A stretch of DNA of 24,671 nt from a virus: the IMG/VR virus record IMGVR_UViG_3300044858_004046, positions 1 to 24,671 of that record; one strand, written 5' to 3'. The first letter of the stretch is position 1; each line of letters starts with the position of its first letter. Below the pieces are notes generated by a model. That model was not told the DNA's origin and searched no databases. It was given only the letters and a program-made list of their open reading frames with translations. Positions 1,908 through 19,586 of the stretch are shown one piece after another. The translations under genes were made by a program, and so were the position numbers.

Positions 1908-2891
1908 CTAGGCCTTCCCATTTCCCACCTTCTTAAAACTATTGGCTGTCACGACCGGGATTTCCCGATCCCGCAGATAGCGCTTGGTCATCTTCGGATC
2001 GGCATGACCAAGGAGCGCGGTGGGGTCGATCCCTTGCCGTTTTGCCTCGGTGCCGGCCATCGCGCGCAGGTCACGAAGCTGCGCATTCTCCACGCCCGCC
2101 TTACTGCATGCCAAGTCCCACTGCTGCCGGATGGTGGTGATCTTCAAGGGCCGGCCGCCCCGCTGGCTGAATAGGGTGAGCGTGGCCACGCCGTGGCGTT
2201 CGGCGGCCTTGGTGCGCTCGACCACGGCGCGCAGATCGGGCGACCAGGCCACGATTAACCTGGCCCCGGTCTTCTGCTGAGTGAAGCTAATCCCTTCGTC
2301 GATCAGTTGAGATCGCTTGATCCCGATGACGTCCGACACCCGCTGTCCGGTCAGCCGGGCGAGGTCCATCACGCATTGCAGCCGGGGGCTGGCATGAGCA
2401 TAGATGGCATCGTATTCCGCGCCGCTGATGAGTCGATCACGCTTGCCGGACGGCAGCGGCTTGATCCCGATGCATGGGTTGAAGTCGATCAGCTCCTCCT
2501 CGAGTCCGTAGGCCATGATCTGGCGCAGCAGGGACAGCAGATGGTTACCGGTGGCCGGCCGGTCCAGATAGGCGCGCCGAAGCTGGGCGACGTGCTTCGG
2601 CATCACTTCATGCGGCGCGAACTCGGCGAAGATCGTCTCCAGGGTCTTGGCTGTTTCTCGGTAGGATTTCTTGGTGCCCTCGGCGACCCTCGTGGTGATG
2701 CTTGGCATGGCCTGCCGGATCATGGCGACCATACCGCCCGAGGGCGCGGAAACCAGGCGCGCGTATTCGGCCAGGGCCTCGCGTAGCTCTGGTCCTAGAT
2801 TGGTCCATTTCCCGTTTTTGACGTACCAGTAACTACCGTGTCGCTGGTAGACGCAGGCGGGGAGATGTCGGTCGGTTTTGCGGGGGCGCAT
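1908..2891 (-). CDS. int: Phage integrase (tyrosine recombinase)
   Basis: A 327-residue tyrosine recombinase that would integrate and excise the phage at att sites. It has an N-terminal arm-binding region, a SAM-like core-binding domain (about residues 55-135) and a catalytic domain. Visible catalytic motifs are Arg in TGQRVSDV, Lys in QQKTGARL, Arg in LRDLRAMAGT, His in LLGHADPKM and Tyr in KRYLRD. The usual His of the HxLR box is Arg here, a variant I believe occurs among phage integrases. The ATG at 2891 is chosen rather than the upstream extension because it gives the typical N-terminus and a modest overlap with the preceding DUF4224-type gene. It lies near the distal end of the leftward early operon. 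Confidence 0.93.
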   Translation of the reverse strand: MRPRKTDRHLPACVYQRHGSYWYVKNGKWTNLGPELREALAEYARLVSAPSGGMVAMIRQAMPSITTRVAEGTKKSYRETAKTLETIFAEFAPHEVMPKHVAQLRRAYLDRPATGNHLLSLLRQIMAYGLEEELIDFNPCIGIKPLPSGKRDRLISGAEYDAIYAHASPRLQCVMDLARLTGQRVSDVIGIKRSQLIDEGISFTQQKTGARLIVAWSPDLRAVVERTKAAERHGVATLTLFSQRGGRPLKITTIRQQWDLACSKAGVENAQLRDLRAMAGTEAKRQGIDPTALLGHADPKMTKRYLRDREIPVVTANSFKKVGNGKA

Positions 2892-3030
2892 GGATATCAG
2901 CCTCGAAGACGACAATGCTACCATCCGGCCGGCGCCGGTAGGGGATGCCCAGCGCGTCCAGGACCCTAGCCTGGGCCGGAGACTTTTGCTTTCCAGTCAG
3001 CTCGCGGAGGATGTCTGGCGAGAGGATCAC
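2833..3030 (-). CDS. DUF4224-type small protein overlapping int
   Basis: A 65-residue protein beginning LSPDILRELTGKQKSPAQAR and continuing with an LGIPYRRRPDGS stretch, the pattern of DUF4224 proteins found just upstream of phage integrases. The start is GTG at 3030: the frame is closed 12 bp upstream by the stop of the clamp-like gene, and GAGGTG lies 5 bp before the GTG. Its 3' part overlaps the first 59 bp of int in another frame. A role as an excisionase or integrase accessory factor has been suggested from such a position, but that is inference. The Pro/Arg-rich C-terminus lies in the overlap. Confidence 0.75.
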   Translation of the reverse strand: MILSPDILRELTGKQKSPAQARVLDALGIPYRRRPDGSIVVFEADIHAPPQNRPTSPRLRLPATR

Positions 3031-3039
3031 ATCATCACC

Positions 3040-3717
3040 TCAGGCCTCGTCGAGCTCGAACGCCCCCGGTGCCGGCAACCAGTTCGGCAACCACTCGGCG
3101 TCGCCGCGGGTCTTCATGATCCCGCCCAGTATCTCGATTTCGCCGATGCCGCCCAGCAGGAAGAGCAGCGGTGAATCGCTGTCTCGGGTGAAGAACCGGA
3201 TCGACGGCGCCTTTGAGCCGACTTTGATCTTGAGTGCGTCGGCAAGGAAGTTCGTGTTCACGGCGCCGGTGATGCCCTCGTGATAGCCGAGGGTGTCGAC
3301 TACCGTCTCGATGCGTGGAAAATTGCCATCGATGATCGAGTTTCCCGGCTGGATGAACAGAGGATTGGTAACAGCATCGTTCCACAGCACCTGGCCGTTG
3401 CTCATTACGTCGAAGGTGACCGTGCTGGCCGCGTGCTTGATGGCGTCCTTGACGACATGGACGACGACTTCCTTCTCGACGTAGCCTTCCTGGTCCCGGA
3501 TGACGATGAACCGGTGGCCATCTGTCGCGGCGATCATGACCGAGCCATCCTCCAGTGGGCGGATGTTGACGCCCATGAGGTAGTAGCGGACGTCGTCGGA
3601 GGCGAGGAAGGGAAATGCCGCCTTGATGGCAATGGAGCTCACTCTGGCGACCATATGCGGCGCGGCCGCTACGCCGCTTTCCTGGTCGAGTAGGTTTTGT
3701 TGTGGCATATCGTTCAT
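3040..3717 (-). CDS. Two-domain DNA sliding clamp homologue (DnaN-like)
   Basis: A 225-residue protein matching domains II and III of the bacterial beta clamp. Clear clamp motifs are DVRYYLMGV (42-50), AATDGHRF (63-70) and IIDGNFPRIETVV (128-140), each equivalent to the well-known E. coli positions. The remainder (about 150-205) fits domain III. Domain I is absent: the family is normally about 366 residues with three domains. It would act as a processivity ring for a polymerase or as a platform or decoy for host clamp-binding proteins. The N-terminal tail contains QQNLLDQ, loosely like a clamp-binding peptide. It lies directly downstream of ssb, with AGAGGA before the ATG. Confidence 0.8.
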   Translation of the reverse strand: MNDMPQQNLLDQESGVAAAPHMVARVSSIAIKAAFPFLASDDVRYYLMGVNIRPLEDGSVMIAATDGHRFIVIRDQEGYVEKEVVVHVVKDAIKHAASTVTFDVMSNGQVLWNDAVTNPLFIQPGNSIIDGNFPRIETVVDTLGYHEGITGAVNTNFLADALKIKVGSKAPSIRFFTRDSDSPLLFLLGGIGEIEILGGIMKTRGDAEWLPNWLPAPGAFELDEA

Positions 3718-3735
3718 GTCAACGGGGTCCTCTGG

Positions 3736-4194
3736 TCAGGAAATCAGTGCCATCACACCGCGCAGGCGGTCGAATGGAATGTCGTCATCGATGCCGGCTC
3801 CGGCTCCGGCTGCGGGCGGTGATTTGTCGCCCTGGTCCGCGTCTTCGGCCCGGCCGCCGGCCGGCTTTCCGCCCAGCATCTGCATCCGGTCGCCGCGCAC
3901 CTCGGTGGTGTAACGGTCGTTTCCGTCCTTGTCCTGCCACTTGCGGGTGCGCAGGCTGCCTTCGACATAGATCTGGCTGCCCTTCTTCAGGTACTGGCCG
4001 CACACCTCGGCGGTCTTGCCGAAGAAGGCAATGCTGTGCCACTCGGTCTGCTCCTGCTTGTCGCCGTTGCGGTCCTTGTAGACCTCGGCGGTGGCGACGC
4101 GCAGATTGGCTACCGCGTCGCCGGAGGGCAGGTAGCGCATGTCCGGGTCGCGGCCAAGGTGGCCGATGAGGATGACTTTATTGATTGATGCCAT
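3736..4194 (-). CDS. ssb: Single-stranded DNA-binding protein with extended C-terminus
   Basis: A 152-residue SSB. The OB fold occupies about residues 1-110, opening [20 protein letters not shown] with [13 protein letters not shown] and [11 protein letters not shown], all typical of bacterial SSB. A flexible Gly/Ala/Pro linker follows. The acidic interaction tip DDDIPF (136-141) is present but not terminal: 11 more residues ([11 protein letters not shown]) follow. In the family the free terminal Phe binds partner proteins. The ATG at 4194 is chosen because it gives the canonical N-terminus; longer frames upstream run into the neighbouring gene, which it overlaps by 17 bp. It would coat ssDNA during phage replication and recombination. 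Confidence 0.93.
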
Positions 4195-4447
4195 TGGTTT
4201 TTCTCCCAAGTGTTTGGCGATGGGCGTACATGCTGGATACGATGCCGAACGGGCCGCCAGCCAGAAAGGCGGCGACCTCGCTCGGGCTTGCTCCGGGCAT
4301 GAGGCGATAGAGAGCCAGGTGGCCAGCGCCAATGGCGAAACTGGTCAGAAAGGCGGATTTGTAGTGGCCCTGGTTGACGTTCTGGCTTTGGAAGCCAAGG
4401 GCAAACACCGAGACGTAGACGCTGGCGAATAGGAGTAGCTCGGTCAT
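4178..4447 (-). CDS. Small phage membrane protein
   Basis: An 89-residue protein with two or three hydrophobic segments: residues 2-18 ([16 protein letters not shown]), about 31-50 ([19 protein letters not shown]) and about 58-74 ([16 protein letters not shown]). Between them is the polar SQNVNQGHY loop. The architecture recalls conserved small membrane proteins of Pseudomonas-type phages, but no function is known to me. Its ATG overlaps the stop of the integron integrase (ATGA), and no Shine-Dalgarno sequence is visible (TCTCCTC precedes the ATG). Its translation therefore now appears to depend on coupling to intI. Confidence 0.7.
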
Positions 4448-5460
4448 GAGGAGATCCGATCCAGCGGGCTCGCCACCCCACGCCCACCGCGATTAAGCAC
4501 GTGGGTATAGATCATCGTCGTCTTCACATCCGAGTGGCCAAGCAGCTCCTGCACCGTCCGGATGTCGTAATTCATTTCGAGTAGATGTGTGGCGAACGAG
4601 TGGCGCAAACAGTGCGGATGCACCGGCTTCGCAATGCCCGCCGCGAACGCCGCCGCCTTCACCGCCCGCTGAATATTCCGCTCGCCCCAATGATGCCGGC
4701 GAACCGCCCCGGAACGCGGATCGCGCGAGTAGGTCGGCGCGGCGAAAACATACTGCCACGCCCACTCCATCGGTGCCTTCGGATACTTCCGCCTCAACGC
4801 ATCCGGCAACTCCACATCCGCGTGCCCGGAAGCTAGGTCGACGTCATGCCAACGGCGCCGAGCGACCAGATGTTCCCGCAACGGCTGCACCAACTTCGAC
4901 GGCAACATCGTCACCCGATCCTTACCCCCTTTGCCGTCCCGGATCGTTACCGATAACGAAGCCAGATCCAGATCTTTCACCCGCAGCCGCAGGCACTCCA
5001 GCAGCCGCATCCCGGTCCCATACAGCAGCTGCACGATCAGCCCATTCGTATCCGGCTTCAAATGCCGGATAAGTGAAGCTGCCTCAGCCTGGGTTAACAC
5101 CGTCGGCAAATGCTTGCTCGGCTTCGCCCGGGTGATGTTGTCCAGCCAAGGCAAGTCCACGTCCAGGACGTCGCGGTACAAAAACAGCAAGGCCGCCAGC
5201 GCCTGATTCTGAGTGCTCGCCGCCACGGTTCTCTCTGTCGCCAAGTGAGACAAGAACGACTCGATCTCGGGCGCCCCCATATCCTTCGGATGGCGTTTCC
5301 CATGGAAGAAGATGAACCGCTTCACCCAGTGGATATAGGCCTGCTCGGTGCGTAAGGCGTAATGCTTGGTTCTGAGCAAGGCACGGATTTGCGCCAGCAA
5401 ACGCGGCGGTTGTTGAACGACAGGCGTTGCTGTCGTGTTGTGACTGTCAGTAACTAGCAT
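4444..5460 (-). CDS. intI: Integron integrase
   Basis: A full-length 338-residue tyrosine recombinase with every hallmark of integron integrases. The catalytic set is Arg152 (GTGMRLLE), Lys180 ([10 protein letters not shown]), His283 and Arg286 ([15 protein letters not shown]), His309 (ELLGHSD) and Tyr318 (MIYTHVL). The IntI-specific insert lies at about 217-262 ([28 protein letters not shown]). The C-terminus [12 protein letters not shown] is also IntI-like. Known members recombine folded single-stranded attC sites with double-stranded attI. AGGAGG precedes the ATG by about 8 bp. No LexA-box pattern is seen upstream. It is co-oriented with the phage early genes. It looks intact and functional; which IntI class it belongs to cannot be told here. 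Confidence 0.95.
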
Positions 5461-11960: not shown

Positions 11961-12137
11961 ATGCCGACCCAGCAGGATCTGCATCACCAGGCGGAGCGTT
12001 GCAGGCGTATGCAATCGCGTGATGATCAGCGGCAGGCGGCGAAGTTATTGTTCGCCATGCTGCTGGAGTCGTTTCAGGCCAAGCTGCCGGAGCGGGATAG
12101 TAAGCGCTGGATTCAGGCTCAGGCGACAGGCCAATGA
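11961..12137 (+). CDS. 58-residue helical protein upstream of the primase-helicase
   Basis: ATG at 11961, two bases after the stop of the regulator; the stop overlaps the primase ATG (ATGA). The product is polar and helical (DLHHQAERCRRMQSRDDQRQ, AAKLLFAMLLESFQAKLPER), with no membrane segment. Short charged helical proteins in this place are common among phages of this type; the role is unknown, perhaps a replication accessory. It shares its frame with the read-through of the frameshifted upstream gene. Confidence 0.6.
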   Translation: MPTQQDLHHQAERCRRMQSRDDQRQAAKLLFAMLLESFQAKLPERDSKRWIQAQATGQ

Positions 12138-14581
12138 TCAAGCTGCCATTCAAGCGCGTCAACGACGCGGCCCTGGCGTGCCTGGTGAGCCTGCTCTCGG
12201 AGTGGTTGCCCGACGGCAAGCTGGATGGCTATGAGTTCAAGGCGCTGAATCCACGCCGCGCAGACGGGCACAAGGGATCGTTTTCGATCAACACCACGAA
12301 CGGGGTCTGGGCGGATTTCGCCACGGATGACAAGGGATCGGACCCGATCAGCTTGTATGCCTATATCTTCACCTCGGGCGACCAGGGCCAGGCTTGCCGT
12401 GAATTGGCGGATCGGTTCGGGATCGATGTTCCGGGCGGCGCCGAAAGAAAGTCGCCACGGGCCGCCGTTCAGCGAAACCCGCCGCCGGTCGAGATCAAAC
12501 CGGCGAAACCGCGCACGCCCTGGACGCCGGCCGGCCCGGCACCGGCGGATGCGCCCGAGCCGCCGAAGGCGCACGTCAAGCGCGGCCTGCCAGAACGGGT
12601 GTGGACTTACCTCGATTCCGCTGGCCAGGTGCTGGGCTATGTCTACCGCTTCCGCACCAGCGATGGCGGCAAGGAGGTGCTGCCCCTGGTGTGGGCCCGT
12701 AACGAGGCGAGCGGCAAGACCGAATGGCATTGGATGACCTGGGCCGAGCCTCGGCCGCTGTATGGCCTGGACAGGCTGGCGGCCAGGCCCGATGCGACCG
12801 TGCTACTGGTGGAGGGTGAGAAGTGCGCCGACGTGGGCTCGGCCGAGCTGCCGGACCTGGTGGTGGTGTCCTGGCCGGGCGGCGGCAAAGCGGTGGCCAA
12901 GATCGATTGGGCGCCGCTGCATGGCCGCAAGGTGATTCTGTGGCCGGACTGCGATGCTCAGCGGGTGCCGTTGACGCGGGAGGAGAAGGACGCCGGGATG
13001 GCGCCGGAGGCCAAGCCCTTGCTCGATGCCCAGGACCAGCCGGGCGTGAAGGCCATGGACCGGATTGAGGCGGTGCTGGAGGGCAAGGCAAAGCTCTGGC
13101 GGGTCTCGATCCCGGCGCCGGGTGAAAAGCCCTCGGGCTGGGATATCGCCGATGCCGTCGACGAGGGCCTGCGCGGCGAGGCGTTGGCGGGGTTTATTCG
13201 CGCCAATAGTCTCGCGCTCGCGCCAGCGGTCGCGGGGTCGGTCGGTCCTGCAAGCACTTCGACGCAACGACCGGCTGGCGCGGCCGACGCCATCGAAGGC
13301 CCGAAAACCCCGGGCTGGATGGACGGGATGGTCTGGAAAGAGCGCGGCAAGCTCGAGGACTGTCGCGAGAACGTTTTTTTGCTGCTGACCCAGCACCCGG
13401 CCTGGGCCGGGGTGATTGCCTGGGACGATTTCGCCCGGCGCTGCGTCAAGCGCAAGCCGACGCCATGGGGCTCGCCGGCGGGGGAGTGGACGTCGGAAGA
13501 CGATTTCGAGCTGGGCCTGTGGATGGCCCAGCGCTGCCGTCTGCTGGTGAAGGGCGAGGGCACTATCACCAATGGCGTGGCCATGACTGCCGCCCGTAAC
13601 AAGTTTCATCCGGTGCGCGAGCACCTGGAGGGCCTGCAGGCCTGGGACGGTATCCCGCGACTGGATCATTGGCTGGTTGATTGCCTGGGGGCGAAGGCGG
13701 GCAGCAACGATTATCTGCGCATCGCCGGCCGGCTGTTCTTCCTGGGGCTGGTGGCGCGGGTGATGTGCCCCGGCATCAAGTGGGATTACATGCTGGTGCT
13801 GGAGGGTCCGCAGGGTAAGGGCAAGTCAACGGCGCTGCGCATCATCGGCGCCGACTGGTTCGCCGATACGCCGCTGCGCCTGGGCGACAAGGACGCCTAC
13901 ATGGCCCTGGACGGCGTCTGGCTGTATGAGGTCGGCGAGATGGATTCATTCAACCGCGCCGAGACCACGGCGGTGAAGGCGTTCGTGACGACCCAGACGG
14001 ACCATTATCGCGAGCCGTATGCCCGGCGCACCATCGATCGCGCGCGCCAAGTAGCCTTCGCCGGCACCACCAACCAGGGCGAGTATTTCAAGGACACCAC
14101 GGGCAACCGCCGGTTTTTTCCGGTGCGACTGGTGGGCACGCTGGACCTGGACAAGCTGGCTGAGTGGCGCGACCAGTTGCTGGCCGAGGCGCTGGCGGTG
14201 TTCCGGTCCGGGGCGCGGCTGTATCCGACCCGCGAGGAGGAGGCGCTCTATATCCGTCCGGAGCAGGAAGAGCGCGAGATCGTCGATCCGTGGATCTACA
14301 AGCTCCAGGACTACCTGGCCGAGCCGGAACAGCAGTTCACCAATGAGTACACATCGCTCGATCTACTGGTCGGCGCCATTGGCGTGGAGGTGGAGAAGAT
14401 CGATAACAACCGGGGCGCGGCGACGCGGCTCGGTAACCTGATGGCGAAGCTGGGTTGGCGCAAGGATCGCCGCTCGACTGGCCGTCGGGAGTGGGTCTAT
14501 GTGCGCCCATGGGCCGTAGAGTCGGCGCCCGCGCCAGCAGTCAGTCACGGGGCAGGGGGGGGCAACGGTGCGCCTTTCTGA
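12134..14581 (+). CDS. Replicative primase-helicase (Toprim plus VirE-type ATPase)
   Basis: An 815-residue replication protein. N-terminal region (about 30-100): KGSFSINTTNGVWADFATDD, the pattern of phage primases that read DNA without a classical zinc finger. A Toprim domain follows with VLLVEGEKCADV (Glu227, Glu229) and LWPDCDAQ (Asp272, Asp274). The VirE/VapE-type P-loop helicase lies at about 500-720: Walker A GPQGKGKST (558-566), YEVGEMDSF (Walker B-like, about 598-606), then an arginine-rich segment YARRTIDRARQVAFAGTTNQ. It should synthesise primers and unwind the phage origin. The sequence directly downstream is packed with repeats, which fits a nearby origin. Confidence 0.9.
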   Translation: MIKLPFKRVNDAALACLVSLLSEWLPDGKLDGYEFKALNPRRADGHKGSFSINTTNGVWADFATDDKGSDPISLYAYIFTSGDQGQACRELADRFGIDVPGGAERKSPRAAVQRNPPPVEIKPAKPRTPWTPAGPAPADAPEPPKAHVKRGLPERVWTYLDSAGQVLGYVYRFRTSDGGKEVLPLVWARNEASGKTEWHWMTWAEPRPLYGLDRLAARPDATVLLVEGEKCADVGSAELPDLVVVSWPGGGKAVAKIDWAPLHGRKVILWPDCDAQRVPLTREEKDAGMAPEAKPLLDAQDQPGVKAMDRIEAVLEGKAKLWRVSIPAPGEKPSGWDIADAVDEGLRGEALAGFIRANSLALAPAVAGSVGPASTSTQRPAGAADAIEGPKTPGWMDGMVWKERGKLEDCRENVFLLLTQHPAWAGVIAWDDFARRCVKRKPTPWGSPAGEWTSEDDFELGLWMAQRCRLLVKGEGTITNGVAMTAARNKFHPVREHLEGLQAWDGIPRLDHWLVDCLGAKAGSNDYLRIAGRLFFLGLVARVMCPGIKWDYMLVLEGPQGKGKSTALRIIGADWFADTPLRLGDKDAYMALDGVWLYEVGEMDSFNRAETTAVKAFVTTQTDHYREPYARRTIDRARQVAFAGTTNQGEYFKDTTGNRRFFPVRLVGTLDLDKLAEWRDQLLAEALAVFRSGARLYPTREEEALYIRPEQEEREIVDPWIYKLQDYLAEPEQQFTNEYTSLDLLVGAIGVEVEKIDNNRGAATRLGNLMAKLGWRKDRRSTGRREWVYVRPWAVESAPAPAVSHGAGGGNGAPF

Positions 14582-14702
14582 CCGGCATGTTTCCGCCTTC
14601 ATTTTCGCCCAGGGATCGGTGCGCTTTTGCGTGTCCGGAAAAGGGTCGGAGATGAAGGTCGAATCCGTCCAACCTTCTCAAGCAACCAAGGTTGGACAGC
14701 CA

Positions 14703-14921
14703 GGCTGGACGGCTGGAAGCCGCGCCGATACTGGCTTCGTCCAACCGTCCAACCATGTCCAACCGACATGCGCAGGCACACACACGCGCACGCCCGCGTA
14801 TAGGCGTGCGTGGCCTTGGTTTTTACCCCTGAGTTTTCCTACAAAAGTTTGTCAATTTCCCTTGGACGAGGTTAGACGGTTGGACGAAGCCAGTATTGGC
14901 GCGGCTTCCAGCCGTCCAGCC
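14703..14921. repeat. 52-bp inverted repeat enclosing 115 bp
   Basis: Left arm 14703-14754 and right arm 14870-14921 are complementary at 50 of 52 positions; both differences are transitions. The arms begin GGCTGGACGG and contain iterons. The enclosed segment carries a smaller hairpin (14787-14810). The almost perfect conservation of arms this long implies recent duplication or selection for a cruciform. Confidence 0.9.
14787..14824 (+). terminator. Possible intrinsic terminator inside the palindrome
   Basis: Stem CGCACGCC / GGCGTGCG (8 bp, 8-nt loop, 14787-14810), followed after 9 nt by TTTTT. It could end the primase transcript. The distance to the T-run is longer than usual, so it may instead be a structural hairpin of the origin. 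Confidence 0.4.
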
Positions 14922-14956
14922 TTGGCGTCTAACTGTGTTTTCGGAGGTTGGACGGT

Positions 14957-15232
14957 ATGAACGACTACGGAATCGATATCCACGCCCTGCGCCGGCACTT
15001 CGTGGCGGTGCGGGATTGGATGCTGGCGTGCGGTGAGTGGACGGCAGATGAGGGAGACGAGATTGGCCAGGCGATCAAGCTGGCCATCGATCCGCCCGAC
15101 CTGGGCTATCTGGCTTGGTGGGCTGAGTGGCTGTCAGGCTGGGCCGATGTGGTCAAGGCGGATGCCGCCGGCCTTGATGCGATGTATCAGGCCGCCCTGG
15201 TGCGTGCCCGGGCCGATAAGGGGGAGGCATGA
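14957..15232 (+). CDS. Small phage protein opening the late operon
   Basis: A 91-residue acidic protein (DYGIDIHALRRHFVAVRDWM, then Trp-rich YLAWWAEWLSGWADV). The ATG at 14957 is chosen because GGAGG lies 9 bp upstream; the TTG at 14948 lies within an iteron. Its stop overlaps the next ATG (ATGA). The pattern is helical and aromatic-rich, with no recognised family. Its position right after the repeat block suggests it may be the first gene under control of that block. Confidence 0.65.
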   Translation: MNDYGIDIHALRRHFVAVRDWMLACGEWTADEGDEIGQAIKLAIDPPDLGYLAWWAEWLSGWADVVKADAAGLDAMYQAALVRARADKGEA

Positions 15233-15987: not shown

Positions 15988-16094
15988 CCGCGCCCACCCC
16001 ACCCCCCCCCCTTCGGGTCCTTCCAAAAAGCCCCCAATGCGGGTTATTCGAACCACGTCTTTTCAGGGTTTGTGGAGGTTGCTAAGGGGGTTGT
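15988..16094. other. Gap before terminase: candidate cos region
   Basis: A 107-bp gap directly upstream of the small terminase gene, the place of cos in lambda-type phages. It contains a run of ten C (16002-16011) followed by TTCGGGTCCTTCC, and an inverted motif GGGTTATTCGAACC (16044-16057). AGGGGG before the next ATG is the ribosome site. Whether packaging cuts here cannot be judged from sequence alone. Confidence 0.3.
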
Positions 16095-19025: not shown

Positions 19026-19586
19026 ATGGCATCCATCCAAACCACCGAACCCACAGAACTGCGCGCCGGCGATACCTGGACCTGGCGCCGGGACGACCTG
19101 TCCGACTACCCGGCGGGCGATGGTTGGACGCTCACTTACTACTTCCGCACCGCCACCCACTATTTCAACGTCGTCGCCGCGGCCGATGGCGATGCTTATC
19201 TCGCCACCGTGGCCAAGGCCATCACAGCCACCTACGGCGCCGGTGCCTATGACTGGGTCGCTGTGGTCGGAAACGCCACCGAGCGCCATGAGGTCGACCG
19301 CGGCAAGACCACTGTCCTGCCCGACTACAGCGCCGCCGTCGCCATCGATGGCCGCACCTTTGCCCGTACCCTGCTCGACTATGTCGAAGCCGAGCTGCTC
19401 AGCCGCGGCAGCTCAGGCCGCCTGGACGTGGTCACCAGCGCCCTGGCCGACCGCAGCCTGACCCGCGACGCCGGCGGCCTGACCACGCTGCGCAACCAGC
19501 TCAAGGTCGAAGTGCAGCGCGAAGAGGCCGCCGAGCGGCGCCGGCAAGGTCTGCCCAGTCGCAACCGCATGCACTTCGTGGGCTGA
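19026..19586 (+). CDS. Head-tail joining-type protein between terminase and portal
   Basis: A 186-residue protein in the place of lambda gpW, but much longer than gpW (68). The N-terminal part (TTEPTELRAGDTWTWRRDDL, YYFRTATHYFNVVAA) is beta-rich. The C-terminal part (DYVEAELLSRG, then LRNQLKVEVQREEAAERRRQ) is a charged helix, with the final RNRMHFVG reminiscent of the end of gpW. The ATG at 19026 (MASIQTT) is preferred; another in-frame ATG is at 19014 and neither has a clear ribosome site. It probably completes the head vertex. Confidence 0.65.
   Translation: MASIQTTEPTELRAGDTWTWRRDDLSDYPAGDGWTLTYYFRTATHYFNVVAAADGDAYLATVAKAITATYGAGAYDWVAVVGNATERHEVDRGKTTVLPDYSAAVAIDGRTFARTLLDYVEAELLSRGSSGRLDVVTSALADRSLTRDAGGLTTLRNQLKVEVQREEAAERRRQGLPSRNRMHFVG

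Follow-up and report, generated by a model that had tools for sequence, protein, structure and literature searches.

Replication of phage P4 requires two separate regions. The P4 initiator, alpha, is a primase-helicase, its type-1 repeats are octamers (GGTGAACA) found in both orientations, and crr, a 120-bp direct repeat, lies just 3′ of alpha. The origins of SaPIs and of E. coli PICIs lie directly 3′ of rep and contain two iteron sets, and the rep-ori segment replicates a plasmid (PMC6092414, PMC7581432). In SCCmec, the initiator helicases Cch and Cch2 bind direct repeats just downstream of their own genes, which for Cch2 amount to only three 5-nt iterons (PMC7581432). The pRN1 origin is one 100-nt stem-loop 3′ of orf904, free of iterons (PMC4234260).

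A related arrangement is found in an IMG/VR virus record of 24,671 bp with undefined physical ends, the whole of which is referred to here as the window. As in the SaPI/PICI pri-rep-ori module, a homologous helicase with a C-terminal DNA-binding domain is encoded, the candidate origin lies directly 3′ of its gene, and two iteron sets flank a central segment. Unlike SaPI/PICI, the system of the window occurs in phages that themselves encode terminase, portal and capsid; its octamers lie in both orientations at fixed spacings; its centre is dominated by an alternating purine–pyrimidine tract and is not simply AT-rich; and a covarying hairpin is found at the helicase stop codon. P4 shares with the window a primase-helicase initiator and octamer repeats in both orientations, but the window octamer is not GGTGAACA, the window holds a single array in place of separate ori and crr, and P4 is without a long alternating tract (longest 7–8 nt). 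In pRN1, as here, the origin or origin candidate lies 3′ of a primase-helicase-winged helix gene and a stem-loop is conserved in structure; the window differs in having iterons and a different small hairpin. Cch and Cch2 resemble the arrangement proposed here in that an initiator helicase has repeats directly downstream of its gene, but they belong to different helicase families.

The helicase gene and the octamer array of the window

The window encodes integrases, a RusA-like protein, a repressor-like protein and a primase-helicase, followed by small terminase, large terminase, portal and protease-capsid genes. Judged by these genes, it is a temperate tailed phage, and its own terminase, portal, protease and capsid genes set it apart from a helper-dependent PICI satellite. 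Within this single phage record, the RusA-like gene is flanked by two integrase-family genes (1908–2924 and 4444–5460, both on the minus strand). The GC skew turns from positive to negative at about position 16000, near the terminase genes.

The primase-helicase (12134–14581, plus strand; 815 aa) is the proposed origin-binding initiator and comprises an N-terminal DnaG/TOPRIM-like primase, a VapE/PriRep-type AAA+ helicase and a C-terminal winged helix. It matches PF05272 (1e-69) and phrog_15962 (DNA primase), and its nearest solved structure is that of SaPI PriRep1 with dsDNA (PDB 7pds; 4e-42 by sequence, 1e-29 by fold); the full-length model matched DnaG-like primase folds. The winged helix, the putative iteron reader, spans codons 719–792 (14288–14509, plus strand), and the AlphaFold model of the C-terminal part (pLDDT 93) predicts a recognition helix at residues 760–772 and wing strands at about 776–779 and 787–790. 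By homology and predicted fold, the protein is a helicase of the PriRep/VapE type, presumably self-loading, with a C-terminal DNA-binding winged helix.

The first-pass annotation described seven exact copies of GTCCAACC in mixed orientation at 14667–14953, directly 3′ of the helicase gene, together with 52-bp arms matching at 50 positions, a central hairpin and a last octamer abutting the start region of the next gene; all of these were confirmed. The array spans 86–372 nt past the helicase stop codon. Exact copies lie on the plus strand at 14667–14674 and, as an inner left cluster, at 14739–14746, 14747–14754 and 14757–14764, and on the minus strand at 14690–14697, at 14878–14885 in the inner right cluster and at 14946–14953. 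Octamers with one mismatch occur at 14703–14710 (minus strand) and 14914–14921 (plus strand), both GTCCAGCC, and at 14870–14877 (minus strand; GTCTAACC) in the inner right cluster. The array thus presents two sets of short iterons. A single extra copy of GTCCAACC lies elsewhere in the window, at 19122; shuffles of the window contained a mean of 0.84 copies, and none of 100 reached eight.

The cores of the 50/52 arms, at about 14703–14754 (plus strand) and 14870–14921 (minus strand), sit within a wider inverted repeat with 86-nt arms (14684–14769 and 14855–14940; 84% complementary), and the array strand folds to a far lower energy than its shuffles (z −14). The central hairpin pairs 14787–14794 with 14803–14810. 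The next gene encodes a small protein (14957–15232, plus strand; phrog_29193, unknown) and precedes the packaging and head genes; its ribosome-site region (GGAGGTTGGACggtATG, 14943–14959) overlaps with the last octamer. Rfam returned no match at gathering scores and otherwise a chance-level mir-662 match alone, and a literature search for the octamer gave unrelated hits only.

The array has a GC content of 0.54 in its centre versus 0.67 in its flanks, the centre being part alternating tract and part AT-richer stretch. The tract, GCACACACACGCGCACGC, is a strictly alternating purine–pyrimidine run of a modest 18 nt (14776–14793), yet the sole run of at least 13 nt in the window. The AT-richer stretch (14814–14862), a candidate melting site, lies between this tract and the right cluster; the lowest GC content of any 20 bp within the gap is 0.25. 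A further hairpin (CC-AGGGAUCG ... CGGAAAA-GG; 14602–14651, plus strand) lies just past the helicase stop codon, its stem extending over about 14598–14656, with a folding energy of −26.8 kcal/mol (z −4.0).

Arrays, alternating tracts and hairpins beside related helicases

A gene-blind scan of viral contigs for GTCCAACCGTCCAACC yielded 86 stretches. Five or more octamers fell within 400 bp at 55 loci; in 44 of these a VapE helicase gene had its 3′ end beside the array, and six of the remaining 11 were truncated by the locus edge. The 24 loci with two copies mostly had no helicase (20/24), as expected of chance matches. Helicase loci were also gathered by scans starting from the helicase, and a de novo octamer search of the 700 bp 3′ of each gene found five or more exact copies at 89 of 146 non-redundant helicases (one of which, at locus L159 with AGCAGCGG, resembles a coding repeat and not an array), compared with 3 of 1351 control tiles; these tiles come from the same loci and are mostly coding while the arrays are intergenic, so non-coding DNA could explain part of this contrast and of that for alternating runs. 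Exactly four copies were found at 18 of the 146 helicases and fewer than four at 39. Many loci are metagenomic and their sequences are related, so that locus counts, other than the tree-based ones, do not represent independent events, and the thresholds used here and below (five copies, 16 nt, the residue grouping) were fixed during exploration.

Octamers vary by lineage and include GTCCAACC, TTCCATACC, TTCCTAACC, GTCCCACC, GTCCTACC, GTCTAACC and TTCCCAACC, among others. In the common layout, outer copies are followed after 35–37 bp by an inner left cluster, a gap of about 75–130 bp, an inner right cluster of reversed orientation and, after another 35–37 bp, further outer copies; the spacings of 35–37 bp between opposed copies and of 8–11 bp inside clusters are recurrent. 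In one named relative, Pseudomonas phage Haddon, the repeats are found 383–613 bp past the helicase. Over 117 arrays, the median of the best arm match is 39 of 52 columns, with the window a tied extreme at 50; it is the arrangement of octamers that relatives conserve, and not the near-perfect arms. The N-terminal primase parts differ among users of GTCCAACC (TOPRIM, zinc ribbon or PriCT-2), and the octamer cluster is absent at loci whose match to the window protein is limited to its N-terminal part. Where known, the hosts are mostly Betaproteobacteria, and the array is common in phage contigs.

Several loci depart from this pattern or extend it. At L053, a GTCCAACC array with an AT-rich centre (2570–2851) lies beside a gene (2866–4761, minus strand) for a DUF927/HTH_56 (Cch-type) helicase of a non-VapE family, an apparent convergence on the same octamer as VapE. 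Two further GTCCAACC arrays in AT-rich contigs (L046, 1297–1571; L014, 670–952) adjoin frames without a Pfam or PHROG match, of which the one at L014 is possibly not a genuine gene. L007 (3341–3453) has fifteen octamers arranged head to tail, all in the same orientation and with no helicase nearby; these probably represent a tandem repeat of unrelated kind. At L197, the closest bacterial relative, the core of the inverted repeat is hidden by a stretch of N about 120–220 bp past the helicase stop codon, owing either to masking or to a gap in the assembly at the palindrome. The Gram-positive phage Paenibacillus phage Bob (L277) has nine TGCAACA iterons, then an AT-rich stretch and an alternating tract of 19 nt, within 0–240 bp past its VapE gene, similar elements in a different order.

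An alternating run of at least 16 nt is present in 92 of 117 arrays versus 23 of 2809 control tiles, and in 106 of 110 arrays the longest run falls inside the gap. Across 1.4 Mb, 62 of the 68 alternating runs of at least 20 nt lie 0–700 bp 3′ of a helicase. Mean GC content in the family is 0.47 to the right of the tract versus 0.62 to its left. The tracts are mixtures of CG, CA, TG and TA and not one repeat, so it appears that the alternating pattern, rather than the sequence, is kept. Z-DNA is the obvious guess for such a tract, and flexible pyrimidine–purine steps are an equal alternative. In a simple B-to-Z energy model, onset superhelicity failed to separate arrays from controls; at sigma −0.06 the medians were −12.4 kcal/mol for arrays and −7.7 kcal/mol for controls, with 31 of 117 arrays beyond the control 1% level. 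As so few arrays pass that level and the window's own array was unremarkable among window tiles, Z-DNA is not claimed for the window. Searches of titles and abstracts returned nothing relevant on Z-DNA at phage iteron origins.

In many members with GTCC-type octamers, a hairpin of the form CC-AGGGATCG ... CGGAAAA-GG with a covarying outer stem lies between the helicase stop codon and the array. Its covariation score is 0.429, compared with 0.144 for shuffles and at most 0.104 for slid alignments; the alignment was gathered through the conserved motif, which builds in the invariant pairs but not the covarying ones (columns 4–7 with 68–71, and 18 with 58). A covariance model run over about 1.74 Mb yielded 37 matches, every one of them 3′ of the helicase and on its strand. 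The great majority lie no more than about 45 nt from the last codon, often overlapping the stop codon; four, including those at L117, L202 and L204, are further off, with no nearer match in their loci. In 11 whole genomes, the model matched only prophage copies corresponding to helicase loci already known. An invariant AGGGAU/GAAAA internal loop is seen in the window hairpin (14602–14651) and in relatives such as L065, L057, L124 and L255. The hairpin has no Rfam match at threshold. Frequent G–U pairs hint that it acts as RNA, and one guess is a signal, in the form of RNA or a single strand, that links the expression of the helicase, or priming, to the origin.

Covariation between the octamer and the wing

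Among 440 C-terminal columns, those most informative of octamer class are 787, 785 and 779, all located in the wing of the winged helix (codons at 14492–14494, 14486–14488 and 14468–14470, respectively; plus strand). Arg or Lys at residue 779 accompanies GTCC octamers and Glu or Asp accompanies TTCC octamers with 82/82 agreement, a split that rests on few evolutionary changes, only two being placed on the tree. In a larger set, Arg785 is present in 48/48 GTCC members, and Glu or Asp779 with Arg786 in all TTCC members.

Residue 787 distinguishes TTCCTAACC from TTCCATACC. Tyr is found with TTCCTAACC in 19/19 cases and with TTCCATACC in 0/42 (non-Tyr in 42/42), a total agreement of 61/61 under a Tyr versus non-Tyr grouping that was chosen post hoc, with the data already seen. 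Grouping Phe against the rest instead gives agreement in 57/61. When the winged helix is left out of tree building, TTCCATACC and TTCCTAACC interchange in 13 independent switches, and residue 787 switches along each time. Concordant pairs number 13/13 by the author's pairing on the best tree and 6/6 on well-supported branches (p 0.031); under the Phe grouping, 5.7 of 6 pairs agree on average and none is opposite. Residue 787 carries 0.85 of 0.89 bits and the next column 0.35. Compared pairwise, winged-helix identity differs with octamer sharing only below 50% AAA+ identity.

A probable replication origin and its alternatives

What the sequence analysis shows is the array with its dyad layout, the conservation of its place 3′ of the helicase gene, a predicted winged-helix fold, and covariation of octamer and winged helix. 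Together with the SaPI/PICI precedent, these findings indicate that the array is very probably a phage iteron origin of replication, with the neighbouring self-loading helicase as the protein that binds it. An iteron origin predicts helicase-linked arrays in most relatives and covariation between winged helix and octamer; both were found, and the origin is strongly supported for this reason. By analogy, we infer direct binding of the octamers by the helicase through its C-terminal winged helix. One helicase ring would assemble on each iteron cluster, flanking the central gap of ~105 bp (14765–14869), and the two rings would strain and open this gap; replication would then start at the array, the fused primase priming synthesis once host factors load. 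A more specific proposal, which must be considered tentative and is rather doubtful as a whole, holds that the alternating element, under selection for pattern and not for sequence, is a supercoil-responsive (Z-DNA-forming) or easily kinked opening device between the helicase-loading sites and that the wing reads the octamer by a residue–base code rewritable by single substitutions.

Some observations do not favour an origin. Arrays adjoining non-VapE neighbours (DUF927/HTH_56 at L053; no family match at L014 and L046) count against it, as do the helicases with four or fewer exact octamer copies. The GC skew of the window, which peaks near 16 kb with no minimum at the array, is likewise unsupportive, although this measure is unreliable in mosaic phages.

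The first-pass annotation had offered three options, namely an iteron or palindrome origin, a binding array for an unknown regulator of the late operon, and a MITE-like insertion. The first of these is strongly favoured. An unknown regulator is not needed, as the adjacent helicase is the best candidate binder. In a regulatory reading, the helicase or another phage protein would act on the array to control the late or helicase operon, and the start of replication would lie elsewhere. In the window, the start of the next gene coincides in part with the last octamer, and in 20 of 36 GTCCAACC arrays the final octamer is no more than 9 nt from a start codon, but the other 16 have no such overlap and a search of the gap for a sigma-70 promoter found none. 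The symmetric pair of clusters around a conserved central tract and the solved relatives also fit an origin better, and pure regulation is unlikely. The 20 arrays with an octamer near the start codon keep a side role in late-operon control in play, and a combined origin and regulatory function is possible.

Placement of the array 1.1 kb upstream of Nu1-like small and gpA-like large terminase genes would suit a cos or packaging site. Against this, the octamers covary with the helicase, the gap beside the small terminase (15988–16094) is free to hold cos, and the cos end annotated in Variovorax phage VarioGold, which is distantly related and has no more than a weak set of repeats at its helicase, is situated about 2 kb further downstream; a packaging site is thus most improbable. 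A MITE-like or other mobile inverted-repeat insertion, to which near-perfect arms around a central hairpin might point, has almost no probability, since the record holds one copy of the element, BLAST against 50,697 phage records returned no match, and the same array recurs at the same helicase gene end in many phages with diverged arms.

On the sequence comparisons, the array is neither a MITE nor an isolated curiosity. The alternating tract and the stop-codon hairpin would be conserved origin-linked elements, of which no description was found in the literature searched. VapE is often annotated merely as virulence-associated, and a large group of phage VapE genes is here tied to an adjacent, recognisable candidate origin. 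The covariation between the octamer and residue 787 offers a recognition code of a self-loading helicase that can be tested directly.
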